Both the position numbers and the translations under genes were made by a program. The notes beneath the pieces were generated by a model. The model was given only the letters and a program-made list of their open reading frames with translations. It was not told where the DNA came from and made no database searches. Below, piece after piece: positions 5,057 to 34,815 of a stretch of 64,000 nucleotides of DNA. Source of the stretch: Muribaculum gordoncarteri (GTDB lineage: Bacteria > Bacteroidota > Bacteroidia > Bacteroidales > Muribaculaceae); contig NZ_CP039393.1 in NCBI RefSeq assembly GCF_004803695.1, positions 1,612,001 to 1,676,000 of the forward strand, written 5' to 3'. Position 1 is the first letter of the stretch. Every line of letters begins with the position of its first letter.

Positions 5057-5458
5057 ATGAGCAAACATATTAGCGATACACTATACCGAGTCGGCCACAT
5101 AATGAGCTCCGACGAGGACCAGCCAATAATAATGGACCTGCTTGTCGGCTTCAATTTTTCCGATGAGCTTGTCATTGTCATCGACCTCTTCGACTACGAA
5201 GAGCCGGCCTACAACTGTTCGACCGCAGCCATTGTCAACACCGACGACGCCCGCATAATGGCCCGTAGGCACAACATTGCCTACTCACAGCTTCCACGCT
5301 TTATTGCCGAATGTATGGCTGAATGGCGGGGAATCATAAATCCCGGTCTGAATTGTGTGAGGGATTGCTTCAAGGAAATCACCGAATGTCTACTCGACGA
5401 AGGCTGCCGCTTCCGCATAAAACGCACCCACGGCCCCAACTACTACATCTGCTGCTGA
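5057..5458 (+). CDS. Hypothetical protein, 133 residues
   Basis: Not recognised. The protein is acidic in its first half and ends in a basic, Cys-rich tail (FRIKRTHGPNYYICC). It has no signal peptide or membrane segment. The start is 18 bp after the terminator of the ATPase gene; no clear -7 box is seen in that gap, so expression may depend on read-through. Its position between the ATPase and the DUF3791 cassette places it in the accessory part of the window. Confidence 0.6.
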   Translation: MSKHISDTLYRVGHIMSSDEDQPIIMDLLVGFNFSDELVIVIDLFDYEEPAYNCSTAAIVNTDDARIMARRHNIAYSQLPRFIAECMAEWRGIINPGLNCVRDCFKEITECLLDEGCRFRIKRTHGPNYYICC

Positions 5459-5699
5459 CACCCCCTAACCTCTCTCCTCCTTTTCCCTTCCCTCCAAATT
5501 GCTGCCGCATCCAACTTCACCCCCCGCCACATCAACGAAACTCAACCCCAGCGATAAATAACCGCCGCCTCCCTCTGCGGCATTTCGCATCTAAACGCCT
5601 CTAATATTGCTCTTAGCCGCATATTTCATATTGACTTCGATTGCTACCTCAAAAATTATCTGTAACTTTACGTTTAACAACAATGTATTACAAGTAAAA
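5459..5699. other. Gene-free, pyrimidine-rich intergenic stretch
   Basis: The first 140 bases are strongly C/T-rich on the plus strand. A weak hairpin GCCGC/GCGGC (5564-5581) could terminate the 133-residue gene. Near the right end TAACTTTA (5663-5670) is one base off TAnnTTTG with a TTG 19 nt upstream, a possible promoter for the HTH remnant and DUF3791/DUF3990 cassette. Nothing else is seen. Confidence 0.4.
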
Positions 5700-19272: not shown

Positions 19273-20574
19273 CTACAGGTCATAGAATTTGGTAAACGCC
19301 TTTATCGTGTAGAGGTGGTCGTCGACCGATGCAGTTTCCCTTACCGAGTGCATGGCCCACAAAGCCGCACCCATGTCGACGCCCCAGAGGTCGATTTGCG
19401 AAGTGAGTATATTGCCGAGTGTCGAGCCTCCGGCCACATCGGAGTGGTTGACGAAGTATTGACACGGCACTCCGGCCTCGTCGCATATAGTCTTGAACAC
19501 CGCCGCCGAATCGGCATCGGTCATATACTTGCAATTGGCATTTATCTTGATTACGGGACCGCCGCCCACTACCGGATGATTGGTGGGATCATGCTTCTCC
19601 GCATAGTTGGGATGCAGGGCATGCGCATTGTCGGCCGACACCATGAATGAATTTGACACAGCTCTCAGATAATCCTCCTCGTTTCCGCCAAGCGACATGG
19701 TTATTCTGCGACATATATGCTCCAATACCGGTGACGCTGCACCCTGCTTCGTACCTGAACCGGTTTCCTCGTTGTCAAATATAGCCATGACACGCGTCAT
19801 CCTGCACATCTCCGATGAAGCAAGCAGAGCCGAAACGGCAGCGTGTACCATCGACAAATCATCAAGACGGCCTGAAGTGATGAACTCATTGTTAACTCCC
19901 ACCCTGCAAGCCTTAGTGGTGTCATAGAGCGACAGGTCAAAGTCGATTATGTCATTTGACGCCACACCGAGTTCTTCGGCTACAAAACGATGAAGGAAAC
20001 CGTCACGCTCGGCCTGCTGCTTGATGATACCCAAAACCGGGAGCATATCCTTCTGCTTGGAGAGCGGATTGCCTTCGTTGACCTGACGGTTGAAGTGAAT
20101 AGCCAGATGCGGTATGGTCATGATAGGACGATTGACGCGCAATAGTCGTGTTTCAGGATTAAAGGGGTCGTTGCTACGCAACAACACACGCCCGGCAATT
20201 GACAGCGGGCGGTCAAACCACGTGTATAGTATAGGGCCTCCGTAGACTTCGGTATTCAGTTTCATGACACCGCCGTCGCTCATCATTTCGGGACGGGGCT
20301 TGATGCGGAATCCGGGAGAGTCGCTATGGGCCGATATAATCTTGAATCCCGATGAAGCGTCACATTCACCCACAATAAATGCAAAGAGCGCCGAGTGATT
20401 CTTTATCGTATAGTATTTCCCACCCGGCTTCAACGACCATGCGTCACGCGGGTCAAGCTTCTTGAATCCATGAGAGTCAAGCATCGATGCAAGAGTGTCA
20501 ACGGCCAAAAAGTTGCACACACCGGCATCCATAAATTCCATAAGTCCCTCGATAGAGGCGTTGTATTTCTCCAT
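19273..20574 (-). CDS. M18-family aminopeptidase
   Basis: A 433-residue cytoplasmic dinuclear zinc aminopeptidase (aspartyl aminopeptidase/ApeB type). Metal and catalytic motifs are in order: ISAHSDSPGFRIKP (His and Asp near 82-84), DNEETGSGTKQGA (acidic pair near 235), VSADNAHALHPN (Asp near 315) and the C-terminal VNHSDVAGGSTLGN. It removes N-terminal acidic or neutral residues in peptide turnover. It converges on the pseudouridine synthase and is transcribed alone. Confidence 0.92.
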   Translation of the reverse strand: MEKYNASIEGLMEFMDAGVCNFLAVDTLASMLDSHGFKKLDPRDAWSLKPGGKYYTIKNHSALFAFIVGECDASSGFKIISAHSDSPGFRIKPRPEMMSDGGVMKLNTEVYGGPILYTWFDRPLSIAGRVLLRSNDPFNPETRLLRVNRPIMTIPHLAIHFNRQVNEGNPLSKQKDMLPVLGIIKQQAERDGFLHRFVAEELGVASNDIIDFDLSLYDTTKACRVGVNNEFITSGRLDDLSMVHAAVSALLASSEMCRMTRVMAIFDNEETGSGTKQGAASPVLEHICRRITMSLGGNEEDYLRAVSNSFMVSADNAHALHPNYAEKHDPTNHPVVGGGPVIKINANCKYMTDADSAAVFKTICDEAGVPCQYFVNHSDVAGGSTLGNILTSQIDLWGVDMGAALWAMHSVRETASVDDHLYTIKAFTKFYDL

Positions 20575-29998: not shown

Positions 29999-30346
29999 AT
30001 GACCATGGATAAACCGCTTTTCAAGCTCATCGCTCTCAAAGATGCACGGGAATTTCTCGACGCACTCCCTGATAAGGTCAGAGAGAAAATTCTTTACAAT
30101 ATTCGTAAAGTCCGTTTCGGCGTACAAGATAAAGAGTTGTTCAAGAAGTTGGACGATGACATTTGGGAGTTCCGCACATCATGTCAGGGCATGGCATACC
30201 GTCTGTTTGCCTTTTGGGACAATGACGGCGAAACACTTGTGATAGCGACCCATGGACTCATCAAGAAATCTCAAAAAACGCCTCAACGAGATAAAGACAA
30301 AGCGAAAGCAATTCGCAAAGAATGGTTCAACAATAAAAATAAATAA
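29999..30346 (+). CDS. RelE/HigB-family toxin (Gp49-like)
   Basis: A 115-residue basic protein of the Gp49/HigB branch of the RelE superfamily: FKLIALKDAREFLDALPDKV near the start, KKLDDDIWEFRTSCQGMAYRLFAFW in the middle and the ATHGLIKKSQKTPQRDKDKA tail. Relatives cleave mRNA on the ribosome. The antitoxin-type HTH gene follows 3 bp downstream; toxin-first order is typical of HigBA. A second in-frame ATG at 30005 is an equally good start. Surrounding AT-rich DNA suggests mobile origin. Confidence 0.88.
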   Translation: MTMDKPLFKLIALKDAREFLDALPDKVREKILYNIRKVRFGVQDKELFKKLDDDIWEFRTSCQGMAYRLFAFWDNDGETLVIATHGLIKKSQKTPQRDKDKAKAIRKEWFNNKNK

Positions 30347-30349
30347 GCT

Positions 30350-30673
30350 ATGGCACAATTAGAATATACCACCATTGAGGAACTTGAAGATAAGTACCTC
30401 GGAACCGTCGGAACTCCACGCCGCGACGCTTTTGAGGCATCGGTAAAAGAGGAAATCCATGCCTACCATATAGGAGAAGCGATAAAGCAAGCTCGAAAAG
30501 AAAAAAACATGACCCAAGAAGAACTTGGAACACTCATGGGAGTAAAGAAAGCACAAATATCGCGCATTGAGAACGGACATAACTTAACCATCAATACAAT
30601 ATCAAGGGCGTTTAAGGCTCTTGGTGTTAATGTTTCCCTCAATTGCGGAAATATGCGTATAGTACTTGTATAA
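30350..30673 (+). CDS. XRE-family HTH antitoxin (HigA-like)
   Basis: A 107-residue protein. An N-terminal extension (EEHAYHIGEAI-like region, about residues 28-45) precedes an HTH_3 domain (AIKQARKEKNMTQEELGTLMG, KKAQISRIENG). It should neutralise the preceding RelE-type toxin and repress the shared promoter. A hairpin terminator follows within 25 bp. Confidence 0.88.
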   Translation: MAQLEYTTIEELEDKYLGTVGTPRRDAFEASVKEEIHAYHIGEAIKQARKEKNMTQEELGTLMGVKKAQISRIENGHNLTINTISRAFKALGVNVSLNCGNMRIVLV

Positions 30674-30905: not shown

Positions 30906-31094
30906 ATCTCTTCGCAAGAGATTTTGAAATGATACAATTGATTAGTAATTAGTGCGTTTAGTCAGCAAAAAGTTATAGATTGAGAAACAATCGTCTATAA
31001 TTGTAAACATTTTTATGCAACAGAATGGCATATTAATTTGCTAATCTTGATTAAATGCATTATTTTTGTAATGAAAAATCTCTTGCGAAGAGAT
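30906..31094. mobile_element. Candidate invertible promoter segment (189 bp between 20-bp inverted repeats)
   Basis: ATCTCTTCGCAAGAGATTTT at 30906-30925 recurs as its exact reverse complement at 31075-31094. Each repeat is itself a dyad (ATCTCTT/AAGAGAT) around a 3-bp core that reads CGC on the left and GCG on the right, the form expected of a tyrosine-recombinase inversion site. Just inside the right repeat lies the best kind of Bacteroidetes promoter: TTTG (31037-31040), 20-nt spacer, TATTTTTG (31061-31068), pointing right. No TAnnTTTG box points left. Inversion would therefore switch the rightward transcript off. Size and layout resemble the phase-variable promoters of Bacteroides capsule loci. 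No recombinase gene is in the window. Confidence 0.65.
31037..31068 (+). promoter_or_regulatory. Canonical promoter inside the invertible segment
   Basis: TTTG (31037-31040), 20-nt spacer, TATTTTTG (31061-31068). Predicted start near 31072-31076, so the right inverted repeat would be the first part of the transcript. Confidence 0.7.
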
Positions 31095-31247
31095 AATACC
31101 TCAAAATTATATTATAATACCTCAAAATTATATTATAGTACCTCAAAATTATATTATAGTACCTCAAAATTATATTACATATCCTTATACTACACAACTA
31201 ATAATTTACGACAAACGGCAGATTTACTTAAAATGATAAATCGGTGA
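31071..31247 (+). CDS. Possible 58-residue heptad-repeat peptide
   Basis: Reads MKNLLRRD, then four 7-residue units (N/S)TSKLYY encoded by the 21-bp array, then a 22-residue tail ending KMINR. The upstream in-frame ATG at 31038 lies before the promoter and is unlikely to be used. The ATG at 31071 is at or just before the predicted transcription start, so translation would be leaderless or from the in-frame TTG at 31083; the RNA could also be non-coding. The protein resembles nothing I recognise. Confidence 0.3.
   Translation: MKNLLRRDNTSKLYYNTSKLYYSTSKLYYSTSKLYYISLYYTTNNLRQTADLLKMINR
31095..31178. repeat. Four tandem 21-bp units abutting the right inverted repeat
   Basis: Units at 31095-31115, 31116-31136, 31137-31157 and 31158-31178 share ACCTCAAAATTATATTA and differ only in the first two and last positions. 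The array starts at the very next base after the inverted repeat. 21 bp keeps the reading frame, so copy-number change would add or remove heptads. Confidence 0.9.
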
Positions 31248-31315
31248 TTGATTGTTTGTGATAAATGGTTTCTCATCTTTTGGACTAATTACCAATTAGT
31301 TAATTATGCCTGTAA

Positions 31316-31349
31316 GGACTGTCCGACAATCGTCGGACAGTCCCTTTTT
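31316..31349 (+). terminator. Strong terminator ending the repeat transcript
   Basis: Perfect 12-bp stem GGACTGTCCGAC/GTCGGACAGTCC with a 4-nt loop and CTTTTT. It isolates the array transcript from the glycosidase gene. Confidence 0.92.
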
Positions 31350-31406
31350 ATATGGATTCCCAATATTTTGCAGTCAAGTCAATTCGGTGATTTTCAAATT
31401 TATTAT

Positions 31407-31414
31407 TATCTTTG
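31407..31414 (+). promoter_or_regulatory. -7 box of the GH43-GH35 gene
   Basis: TATCTTTG matches TAnnTTTG and gives a leader of about 75 nt. The -33 region is poor, consistent with activator control of a polysaccharide-use gene. Confidence 0.5.
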
Positions 31415-31497: not shown

Positions 31498-34400
31498 ATG
31501 AAAAAGTTCTTTTGCAACTTGGCGATAGCAGCAAGCCTGCTATTAAGTGCATCAATCGCTGAAGCCAAGCCGATAGAAAACAATGTCATTGTCCCCGGTG
31601 AAGTGTGGAACGACACCGACGGAAACCCAATCAATGCTCATGGCGGCGGTATTCTTTACCATAACGGCAAATATTACTGGTATGGTGAGTACAAGAAAGG
31701 CAAAACCGTATTGCCCGACTGGGCGACATGGGAATGTTACCGCACCGATGTGACAGGTGTGAGCTGCTATTCATCACCCGACATGGTAAACTGGACCTTT
31801 GAGGGCATCGTTCTTCCCGCCGAGGAAGATGCGAGCAGCGATCTCCACCCGAGCAAGGTACTTGAGCGCCCCAAAGTAATCTACAACGCCAAGGCAGGCA
31901 AATTTGTAATGTGGGCCCATGTCGAAAGCGCCGACTACAGCAAGGCCGCAGCAGGTGTTGCCGTAAGCGACTCCCCCACCGGCCCATTCAAATATCTCGG
32001 CAGCTTCCGTCCCAACAATGCGATGAGCCGCGACCAGACACTCTTTGTCGACGATGACGGACGAGCCTATCAGCTATACTCATCAGAAAATAACGCAACT
32101 CTCTATATCAGCGAGCTGACCGACGACTATCTACGCCCCTCGGGACGATTTACCCGCAACTTCATCGGTGCAAGCCGCGAAGCTCCTGCCGTGTTCAAGC
32201 ACGACGGAAAGTACTACATGCTGTCATCGGGCTGCACCGGATGGGACCCCAATCAGGCCGAACTTGCTGTTGCCGACTCCATAATGGGACAGTGGAAAGT
32301 ATTAGGCAATCCATGTACCGGAACCGACGCCGACAAGACATTTTACGCACAGAGCACCTATGTTCAGCCCGTATACGGCAAGAAAGATCTCTACGTAGCC
32401 ATGTTTGACCGTTGGAACAAGACTGATCTTGAAAACTCGCGTTACGTGTGGCTGCCGTTGTCGATGAAAAACGGCAAGATAACAATTCCTTGGAAAGAGC
32501 GATGGAGCATGAACGACTATGCCGATCAACCGCGTTTCGAGGCCGGCGACGGTACATTCCTGCTCAATGGAGAGCCATTTGTAGTGAAAGCTGCCGAGCT
32601 TCACTATCCGCGCATACCCAAACCCTACTGGGATCAGCGCATCAAGATGTGCAAAGCCCTCGGCATGAATGCAGTGTGCCTCTATGTATTCTGGAACTCT
32701 CACGAGCCCAAGCCCGACCAATTTGACTTCACCGGACAGAATGACCTCCGTGAATTCGTAAAACTTTGCGAGCAAAATGACATGAAAGTCATATTGCGTC
32801 CCGGCCCATACGTATGCGCCGAATGGGAAATGGGAGGTCTTCCTTGGTGGCTTCTGAAGAAGAAGGATATACGCCTTCGCGAATCCGATCCCTATTTCCT
32901 TGAGCGTGTCGACAAATTCCAGAAGGCCGTAGCTGATCAGGTATCCGACCTCACCATTGCCAACGGAGGCCCCATAATCATGGTTCAGGTTGAAAACGAA
33001 TACGGTTCCTACGGTATCGACAAGCAGTATGTTTCGGAAATACGTGACATGCTGCGCAAGAACTTCGGCAACGAAGTCACCCTGTTCCAGTGTGACTGGT
33101 CGTCCAACTTCCTGAACAACGGACTTAACGACCTTATATGGACAATGAACTTCGGCACCGGAGCCAACATCGACCAGCAGTTTGCCAAGCTTAAAGAGGT
33201 ACGACCCAACAGTCCGTTGATGTGTTCCGAATTCTGGAGCGGATGGTTTGACAAGTGGGGAGCCAATCACGAAACACGCCCTGCCGCCGACATGATAGCC
33301 GGCATCGACGAGATGCTTTCAAAGGGCATATCATTCAGCCTCTACATGACTCACGGCGGAACCAACTGGGGACATTGGGCCGGAGCCAACTCTCCCGGAT
33401 TTGCTCCCGATGTCACATCCTACGACTACGATGCACCCATCAGCGAGTCGGGACAGACAACTCCCAAATATTGGGAACTCCGCAAGACACTCGCCAAATA
33501 CATGGACGGCAAGAAGCAGGCCGATGTGCCCTCGCTCATCAAGCCCATCGCCATACCGTCGTTCACATTCACAGAAGTGGCACCGTTGTTCTCCAATCTG
33601 CCGGAGCCTAAGAGTGATGCCGAGATACGCACCATGGAAGAGTATGACCAGGGATTCGGCAGCATCCTCTACCGCACTACACTTCCCGAACTCAAGCAAC
33701 CGGCACTTCTTACCGTTAACGATCCTCATGACTACGCTCAGGTATTTGTCGACGGAAAATTCATCGGCAAGCTCGATCGTCGCAACGGCGAGAAAGCCCT
33801 CACAATTCCGGCATGCAAGAAAGGCGCAACACTCGACATACTCATCGAGGCCATGGGCCGCATCAACTTCGGCCGCGCAATAAAGGACTTCAAGGGTATA
33901 ACCGGCAATGTCACCGTCACCGTCGACAATGAAGGACACCGATTTGTGTGCGACCTCAAAAACTGGAAGGTATATAATATAGAGGACACCTACGACACCT
34001 ATACCTCGATTGGTGAATTCTATCCTATCGAAACCTTCACTCCCGACGAAAACGGACGCCTGCCTCGCGGTGTATATCGCGGAACATTCAATGTCAAGAA
34101 ACCGTCGGATACATTCCTGAATTTTGAGACATGGGGTAAAGGTCTTGTATATGTCAACGGACATCCCATGGGACGCATTTGGGAGATAGGCCCGCAACAG
34201 ACTCTGTATATGCCAGGATGCTGGCTCAAGAAAGGCGAAAATGAAATACTTGTATTCGACATTATAGGCCCGAAGGAAGCAAAGTCGGAAGGATTGCGTG
34301 AACCGCTCCTCGACCAGCTGCTTGTTCAGAAACCTCTCACCCACCGCGAAGAGGGACAGAATCTCGTGCTTTCATCGGAAACTCCGGTCTACACCGGCAG

Positions 34401-34815
34401 CTTCGCTCCCGGCAACGGATGGCAGGAGGTGAAATTTGACAAGCCTGTGACCGGTCGCTACATCTGCCTTGAGGCACTTAATTCAATCAATGGAAAGGAT
34501 ATCGCCGCCATAGCCGAGATGTATGTATTGGACGACAAAGGCGAGCGTCTGTCACGCGAGCCGTGGATTGTAAACTATGCCGACAGCGAGGATGTGGCAA
34601 GAATGAACCGCTCGGGCGACAAGACATTCGACCTTCAGGAGTCGACCTATTGGAGCACCGTTCCCGGAACACCGTTCCCCCACGCCATAGTGATTGACCT
34701 CGGAGCGACCCACAGCATCGAAGGATTCCAGTATCTCCCGCGAATGGAGAGCGATGTTCCCGGCGCAATCAAGGATTTCAAAATCTATGTAAAGAACACT
34801 CCGTTTAAATATTAA
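31498..34815 (+). CDS. Secreted GH43-GH35 fusion glycoside hydrolase
   Basis: A 1105-residue exported enzyme (signal MKKFFCNLAIAASLLLSASIAEA). Residues about 30-340 form a five-bladed GH43-like domain (HGGGILYHNGKYYWYGEYK, SRDQTLFVDDDGRAYQLY, REAPAVFKHDGKYYMLSSG), close to the galactan-acting GH43 subfamilies. Residues about 350-690 are a GH35 beta-galactosidase barrel with acid/base Glu in MVQVENEYGSYG (near 500) and nucleophile Glu in PLMCSEFWSGW (near 577). Beta-sandwich modules follow (700-960), then a discoidin-like end (about 975-1105). The two activities suggest stepwise removal of galactose from arabinogalactan or a similar glycan. It stands alone, without a SusC/SusD pair nearby. Confidence 0.88.
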   Translation: MKKFFCNLAIAASLLLSASIAEAKPIENNVIVPGEVWNDTDGNPINAHGGGILYHNGKYYWYGEYKKGKTVLPDWATWECYRTDVTGVSCYSSPDMVNWTFEGIVLPAEEDASSDLHPSKVLERPKVIYNAKAGKFVMWAHVESADYSKAAAGVAVSDSPTGPFKYLGSFRPNNAMSRDQTLFVDDDGRAYQLYSSENNATLYISELTDDYLRPSGRFTRNFIGASREAPAVFKHDGKYYMLSSGCTGWDPNQAELAVADSIMGQWKVLGNPCTGTDADKTFYAQSTYVQPVYGKKDLYVAMFDRWNKTDLENSRYVWLPLSMKNGKITIPWKERWSMNDYADQPRFEAGDGTFLLNGEPFVVKAAELHYPRIPKPYWDQRIKMCKALGMNAVCLYVFWNSHEPKPDQFDFTGQNDLREFVKLCEQNDMKVILRPGPYVCAEWEMGGLPWWLLKKKDIRLRESDPYFLERVDKFQKAVADQVSDLTIANGGPIIMVQVENEYGSYGIDKQYVSEIRDMLRKNFGNEVTLFQCDWSSNFLNNGLNDLIWTMNFGTGANIDQQFAKLKEVRPNSPLMCSEFWSGWFDKWGANHETRPAADMIAGIDEMLSKGISFSLYMTHGGTNWGHWAGANSPGFAPDVTSYDYDAPISESGQTTPKYWELRKTLAKYMDGKKQADVPSLIKPIAIPSFTFTEVAPLFSNLPEPKSDAEIRTMEEYDQGFGSILYRTTLPELKQPALLTVNDPHDYAQVFVDGKFIGKLDRRNGEKALTIPACKKGATLDILIEAMGRINFGRAIKDFKGITGNVTVTVDNEGHRFVCDLKNWKVYNIEDTYDTYTSIGEFYPIETFTPDENGRLPRGVYRGTFNVKKPSDTFLNFETWGKGLVYVNGHPMGRIWEIGPQQTLYMPGCWLKKGENEILVFDIIGPKEAKSEGLREPLLDQLLVQKPLTHREEGQNLVLSSETPVYTGSFAPGNGWQEVKFDKPVTGRYICLEALNSINGKDIAAIAEMYVLDDKGERLSREPWIVNYADSEDVARMNRSGDKTFDLQESTYWSTVPGTPFPHAIVIDLGATHSIEGFQYLPRMESDVPGAIKDFKIYVKNTPFKY

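Follow-up and report, generated by a model that had tools for sequence, protein, structure and literature searches.

Several trans-acting promoter invertases have been described in Bacteroides fragilis (citations by PMC number refer to excerpts of the papers). Mpi, a serine recombinase with repeats ARACGTTCGTN (PMC8375218), acts on 13 regions, and Tsr0667 acts on three SusC/SusD clusters and nine regions (PMC4747536). Tsr19 (BF2766/BF2780), a tyrosine recombinase, has local and distant promoters, IVp-I/IVp-II (PMC4747536; PMC3090145); one inverton directly follows the recombinase gene and the other is far off, and the local switch is OFF in three sequenced genomes. Palindromic repeats have also been reported at tyrosine-type invertases, such as CCGTTACCTABVRAGTAAC in B. 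thetaiotaomicron and GCTACTYRGNRAGTAGC in P. distasonis (PMC12118408). In the IP-ARG classes, one or two invertible promoters come after the invertase gene (PMC8748976), and in a defined gut community invertons were grouped by repeat motif (PMC11892184). The -7 consensus used in the present study, TAnnTTTG, is from PMC4747536 and PMC8748976.

Here, we describe a 189-bp segment of the Muribaculum gordoncarteri genome, designated inverton w, which is a candidate invertible promoter and one of a set of eight segments bounded by the site ATCTCT-N5-AGAGAT. This site does not fit the Tsr0667 consensus, which reportedly reads AGTYYYN4GDACT. Otherwise, Tsr0667 is similar in that one tyrosine recombinase serves about a dozen loci, many of them at SusC/SusD (PMC4747536), with conserved arms and a variable core. 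Mpi is also one enzyme that acts in trans on many surface promoters, but it is a serine enzyme with an unrelated site, and PF00239 matches in our genome are limited to contig C3. Tsr19, as presented in the excerpts, shares the TAnnTTTG promoter and the presence of extra repeats between promoter and gene; unlike Tsr19, our candidate recombinase lacks a local switch and would, provided that the assignment is right, have eight distant ones. The GTTAC...GTAAC class is likewise found beside an invertase gene and drives surface operons, whereas our arms, ATCTCT/AGAGAT, are different; in our reading, the GTTAC-type or GCTACT-armed repeats of that source (PMC12118408) can be taken to share a 17-bp 6-5-6 layout with ours. 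Loci homologous to our candidate recombinase have the same architecture as IP-ARG, including two tandem invertons (L149, L150, L180, L194), although IP-ARG cargo consists of resistance and glycan genes (PMC8748976).

Given the Mpi, Tsr0667, Tsr19 and IP-ARG precedents, the mechanism is of a known kind. What the present analysis contributes is the ATCTCT-N5-AGAGAT site, its link with a recombinase family and the eight-locus set, all of which may be new to the literature. No matching site was found in the excerpts of PMC5903667, PMC10939037, PMC11852207 and PMC12632263, and a literature search of limited coverage returned nothing on DNA inversion in Muribaculaceae. Muribaculaceae and their relatives would gain a concrete enzyme-site pair (one recombinase family and one 17-bp site grammar of fixed arms and variable core), together with eight switches named individually in a single genome; two of these switches lie between divergent paralogues (SusC-like genes at d and DUF3575 operons at f). 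Two questions become directly testable, i.e., whether many surface states are set at once by a single enzyme, and whether the core prevents recombination between loci.

Structure of the candidate inverton

The window is the whole stretch of DNA that was analysed, 64,000 nucleotides corresponding to C1:1612001-1676000 of the 3.43-Mb genome. A preliminary description of the window had reported a pair of perfect 20-bp inverted repeats bounding 189 bp, an asymmetric 3-bp core in each repeat, and an outward promoter pointing to the right between HigBA-type genes and a glycosidase. We found that the repeats, the core and the promoter were exactly as described, and that the flanking genes were correctly recognized, with a Gp49/HigB-like gene and an HTH gene on one side and the GH43+GH35 glycosidase on the other (Table 1). 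Each repeat is the dyad ATCTCTT-CGC-AAGAGAT, and on the plus strand the core reads CGC in the left copy and GCG in the right copy. The promoter, TTTG-N20-TATTTTTG, contains the sole TAnnTTTG box of the segment, and no leftward box was found inside it. Allowing up to three mismatches, no further copies of the 20-mer were detected in the 64-kb window, and 100 shuffles also gave 0. A search of plasmids for similar DNA had no match. The comparison with related genomes that had been suggested for detecting an inverted copy (60 relatives, up to eight first-look candidates scored per genome) returned only 28–53 bp matches besides the locus itself; no orthologous segment was found in these relatives, and no inverted allele was seen.

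Table 1. Coordinates of the features discussed in the text. Positions without a contig name are those of the window; box directions refer to the TAnnTTTG box near one end.
Feature	Position	Strand	Remarks
HigB-like gene (Gp49, PF05973)	29999..30346	+	
HigA-like HTH gene	30350..30673	+	
Inverton w (candidate invertible segment)	30906..31094 (C1:1642906-1643094)	.	189 bp; perfect 20-bp inverted repeats at ends; core TCGCA; box right
Left recombination site (candidate)	30906..30925	+	ATCTCTTCGCAAGAGATTTT = ATCTCT-TCGCA-AGAGAT + TTT
Right recombination site (candidate)	31075..31094	-	left-site sequence inverted; 20/20 identical
-33 element	31037..31040	+	TTTG; from sequence and position relative to -7 box
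-7 element	31061..31068	+	TATTTTTG (TAnnTTTG); ends 26 bp before outer end of right repeat
Open frame through right site and repeats	31071..31247	+	58 aa from ATG 31071; listed from TTG 31038
Four 21-bp tandem repeats	31093..31177	+	ATAATACCTCAAAATTATATT; outside right site, sharing its last 2 bases
Intrinsic-terminator-like hairpin	31316..31343	+	strong; 12 pairs, 8 G-C; then CTTTTTAT
Separate promoter-like box	31407..31414	+	TATCTTTG; 3' of terminator-like hairpin, 5' of glycosidase
GH43 + GH35 glycosidase	31498..34815	+	
Candidate tyrosine recombinase	C1:984363-985598		412 aa, intact; PF17293 arm, PF13102 SAM-like and PF00589 domains
Inverton b (L020)	C1:1013207-1013411		205 bp; core TGGCA; box right
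Inverton c	C1:1557983-1558195		213 bp; core TGCGC
Inverton d (L088)	C1:2514085-2514448		364 bp; core TGCCG; box left
Inverton e	C1:2721381-2721571		191 bp; core TACCA; box right
Inverton f (L090)	C1:2987297-2987722		426 bp; core TGCTT; box left
Inverton g	C1:31038-31221		184 bp; core TGGTA; box left
Inverton h	C1:288444-288780		337 bp; core TACCT; box left

Paired sites in the genome

The preliminary description had also proposed looking for the 20-mer at other loci. A genome search with ATCTCT-N5-AGAGAT, one mismatch allowed, matched 19 places, which resolved into eight pairs and three unpaired singles; the backward control pattern matched 2. Not all arms are perfect; in each of the segments d, f, g and h, a single arm mismatch is present in one copy of the site or in both. 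The 5-bp core was the same within the pair at all eight loci and distinct between loci, and when right cores were dealt at random, a mean of 0.99 of 8 pairs matched (20,000 deals). The interiors of the eight segments are unrelated, with a single 13-bp match at E≤0.01. A TAnnTTTG box was present 26–34 bp from one end in 7 of the 8 segments (0.22 of 8 expected from shuffled interiors in a 22–38 bp range). Inverton h has a second box, rightward, 120 bp from the end, and no canonical -7 box was found in inverton c.

A recombinase family adjoining the same site

The statement in the preliminary description that no recombinase lies nearby holds for the neighbourhood of w; elsewhere in the genome, PF00589, the domain of tyrosine recombinases, was matched 38 times. 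Our candidate is the 412-aa protein listed in Table 1, whose gene is about 657 kb from w. No motif site (up to 2 mismatches) was found in the 5 kb around this gene, and the link between enzyme and site therefore rests on homology. R261, K287, R360 and Y392 are invariant across 18 homologues and H383 is nearly so; these five are the putative catalytic residues. A second member of the family in the same genome (C1:1122181-1123107, L086) is short at the start and has 2 TAA codons within the matched stretch; it is probably a relic.

To characterize the surroundings of homologous recombinases, we used the best 80 of at least 590 confirmed loci (1.16 Mb), mostly from Muribaculaceae, Porphyromonadaceae, Bacteroides or Bacteroidales, with Paramuribaculum intestinale, Parabacteroides faecalis and Phocaeicola plebeius among the named species; L179, L215 and L243 were labelled as other phyla, perhaps because of binning errors. 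A motif-free scan of these best 80 of at least 590 loci for every exact hexamer dyad (gaps 0–10) with an exact inverted pair 100–600 bp apart returned only inverted pairs that are registers of the ATCTCT-N5-AGAGAT motif, namely TCTCTT-N3 (13 loci), ATCTCT-N5 (5), CTCTTG-N1 (4), CTCTTA-N1 (4) and CTCTCT-N5 (2). When small mismatches were allowed, 31 pairs were found in 28 of the 80 loci, a proportion that holds for the closest relatives, as the best 80 of at least 590 were taken. Within this best 80 of at least 590, all 31 pairs were located downstream of the recombinase match, 16–605 bp past its end, and in 27 of 31 a -7 box was 28–33 bp from an end (0.82 expected); the promoter is directed towards the recombinase in 24 of these 27 boxed invertons and away from it in the other 3. 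Tandem invertons, two per locus and differing in their cores, were observed at L180 and L194 and likewise at L149 and L150, and L240 has three sites with one core.

The motif pair was missing in 52 of the best 80 of at least 590 loci. An additional search for other arms covered 36 of these 52, and at L248, L249 and L256 the inverted repeats that come after the homologous recombinase have different arms (CACTCT-type; TTTCTTAGACAGAGGGA), so that site specificity probably drifts within the family. At L238, a 15-mer, TAGACCAGGAACCAG, which starts 19 bp past the recombinase match, pairs with several copies in inverted orientation at a spacing of about 50 bp.

Other tyrosine-recombinase loci, examined with 1.5-kb flanks, had no motif pair: 0 of 30 own PF00589 loci (30 of the 38 matches, some being duplicates of one element), 0 of 9 L028-type loci (two of which repeat own ones) and 0 of 14 XerC/D-like loci (from seven relatives), a control from which L114-L129 were left out, L118 among them having a motif pair nearby.

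We also compared the distribution of the family and the site. The E≤1e-55 cut, by which 26 of 61 genomes carried the family (30 by E≤1e-30), was chosen after the results had been seen; no genome has its best match between 4.9e-73 and 1.5e-39. The exact pair was present in 12 genomes, all of them among the 26 family-positive ones (Fisher p 5.5e-6, with kinship only partly controlled), and within our genome's own family, f1, the exact pair occurred in 12 of 25 family-positive and 0 of 12 family-negative genomes (p 0.0028). The comparison considered exact-motif pairs only, with one pair (G000) standing for our own genome and G019, which has a mismatched pair, scored negative. The exact pair was absent from 14 of the 26 family-positive genomes.

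In a tree comparing recombinases from seven site-carrying relatives, our candidate fell into a clade of six rows, members of which adjoin sites in G023 and G027; a sister clade contained one gene adjoining sites, in G021. Homologues outside the tree that adjoin pairs were found in G005 (67% identical) and G019 (57%). In G035, the best family member aligns over residues 68-410 only. Not all adjacent recombinases belong to the family, since L118 of G032 (C16; L137), a 431-aa protein of another clade, is encoded at a distance of about 0.43 kb from a motif pair.

Two other candidates were rejected as the enzyme. The 309-aa L028 recombinase is present in 7 of 61 genomes, and 11 of the 12 pair-carrying genomes lack it. 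Serine recombinases are represented by only two PF00239 matches, both on contig C3 and encoding identical 187-aa proteins. This contig carries two identical resolvase genes (5118-5525 and 19928-20335) 14.8 kb apart and may be a plasmid assembled twice.

Interpretation of the paired dyads

The combination of fixed arms and locus-specific cores points to recombination sites, with the arms as protein contacts and the core as the place of crossover, rather than to terminators or transposon copies. The eight core-matched pairs, the box near one end in seven of them and the pairs adjoining a recombinase in 28 of the best 80 of at least 590 loci all support the invertible promoter proposed in the preliminary description. 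We consider that 30906-31094 is a promoter inverton within a multi-locus regulon, most likely flipped by the C1:984363-985598 recombinase, with a probability of roughly 0.88. That the two dyads are instead fixed bidirectional terminators, each a hairpin with a T-run, around an ordinary promoter that does not invert is very improbable. The w dyad can fold as a hairpin and has TTTT on both inner sides, and at h one inner flank carries a T-run. However, TTTT (last site base plus 8) was observed at no more than 3 of the 16 inner flanks, two of which belong to w, and at 2 of the 16 outer ones. Moreover, terminators predict neither asymmetric cores that are identical within a pair and distinct between loci nor adjacency to one recombinase family, and this alternative, which the preliminary description had raised, fits poorly. 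It is hardly credible that the repeats are the ends of a miniature transposon (MITE). Although 184–426 bp segments with terminal inverted repeats at eight loci would be in line with such an element, we rejected it because no interior match across the copies exceeded 13 bp at E≤0.01 and the cores are locus-specific.

Two further possibilities accept that w is a site-specific switch and concern its enzyme. The segment could be, or have been, an invertible promoter that is now locked, its enzyme being missing, inactive or incapable of acting on the site, so that a single fixed state is seen in the window. Our 412-aa recombinase has no nearby site, the second own member appears to be degraded, and two relatives retain site pairs when their sole family member is interrupted (1 TAA in G018, L125/L170) or shows 1 TGA (G002, L154), which means that either another enzyme acts there or the sites are relics. 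On the other hand, our 412-aa gene is intact with conserved catalytic-type residues, and the repeats of w are undecayed, being identical at all 20 positions, so we regard a locked state as improbable. Similarly small is the likelihood that a different tyrosine recombinase of this genome flips the sites. There are 38 PF00589 matches to choose from, and the gene near a pair in G032 is of another clade, in a genome that also has a family member; but the L028-type candidate is missing from nearly all genomes with the pair, and the 30, 9 and 14 control loci of other recombinases lacked it, as compared to 28 of the best 80 of at least 590 loci for the proposed family.

Proposed mechanism

We propose that a tyrosine recombinase, most likely the 412-aa product, acts in trans on w. 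The enzyme would bind the 6-bp arms of the two inverted sites and strands would be exchanged in the 5-bp core, thus flipping the 189 bp. In the assembled state, the single promoter points to the right, and transcription would start near 31074 and run through the right site and the four 21-bp repeats to the predicted terminator at 31316-31351. In the flipped state, it would drive leftward, antisense transcription that reaches the HigA-like gene at its 3' end. If recombination is efficient only between sites with the same core, the core would serve as a locus address, and eight switches could depend on one enzyme without cross-recombination.

Probable product of the switch

The preliminary description had named an adjacent repeat transcript as the switched product, and this wording agrees better with the arrangement downstream of w than the glycosidase does, as the terminator-like hairpin and the TATCTTTG box lie in between. 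The fold of 31073-31352 had a z of -3.6. Thus, the directly switched product of w is probably a repeat-bearing transcript or leader of about 280 nt, as judged from these sequence elements. The glycosidase is the next long same-strand gene after w, and other invertons often neighbour surface or glycan genes; direct regulation of the glycosidase by w as a classic ON/OFF promoter is possible but doubtful, because the hairpin with its 12-bp stem separates the two and the gene has its own TATCTTTG box past the hairpin, in a stretch of 35–53 bp that is 78–89% alike in three other genomes (G004, G015 and G059). We think that control of the glycosidase, if any, would occur via read-through, as an additional regulated step. 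A more specific idea, which we put forward tentatively and consider rather unlikely, is that w flips on a phase-variable regulatory RNA (or an antiterminated glycosidase leader) inside a trans-acting invertase regulon with core-encoded addresses. If the regulatory-RNA reading were true, w would control not a surface gene but a terminator-bounded RNA of about 280 nt that combines the recombination hairpin with four 21-nt repeats.

With up to three mismatches, the 21-bp unit is confined in the whole genome to the array at 31093-31177. The repeats are in frame, giving a 7-codon unit that is NTSKLYY-like, and their copy number may differ among strains. The open frame that includes them is doubtful as a gene because its ATG is only 3 nt past the -7 box.

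Possible signs of inversion

Most similar stretches among the recombinase-linked segments have the same direction, and opposed matches are short or weak. The latter were found for L268 versus L269-L271 (114 bp, 68%), L213 versus L245 (53 bp, 75%) and L190 versus L180 and L194 (30–37 bp, 84–87%). These opposed pairs provide a modest hint of real inversion, modest because the shorter matches may be promoter sequence alone. Of 79 contig ends, 2 had the full motif at a distance of no more than 60 bp and a third had a variant, compared with 10 of 829 for the interior control, which is too weak to serve as a sign of mixed orientation. Among IMG/VR viral contigs, the family with an adjoining site pair was observed at 6 of 17 loci (L265, L267-L271), the segments of L269-L271 being identical; the recombinase-site cassette may travel on mobile elements.

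Genes adjacent to the other invertons

Inverton d is located between two divergent SusC-like genes and inverton f between two divergent DUF3575 genes, with a fimbrillin in the right-hand run of f (the third gene on its left was outside the domain scan). As d and f sit between divergent paralogues, a flip there would exchange the driven side rather than switch a gene ON or OFF. The promoter of e faces a SusC-like gene, that of h faces away from a DUF3575/DUF3868/fimbrillin run, and that of g points away from a 944-aa protein that matched no Pfam domain. Inverton c lies beside an M13 peptidase. The promoter of b faces a lipoate-ligase gene and away from a NusG-domain gene, which is followed by an unmatched gene and then by a polysaccharide flippase; we take this NusG-domain gene to be UpxY-like by its position. 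The left site of b falls within the first codons of the longest NusG-domain reading frame.
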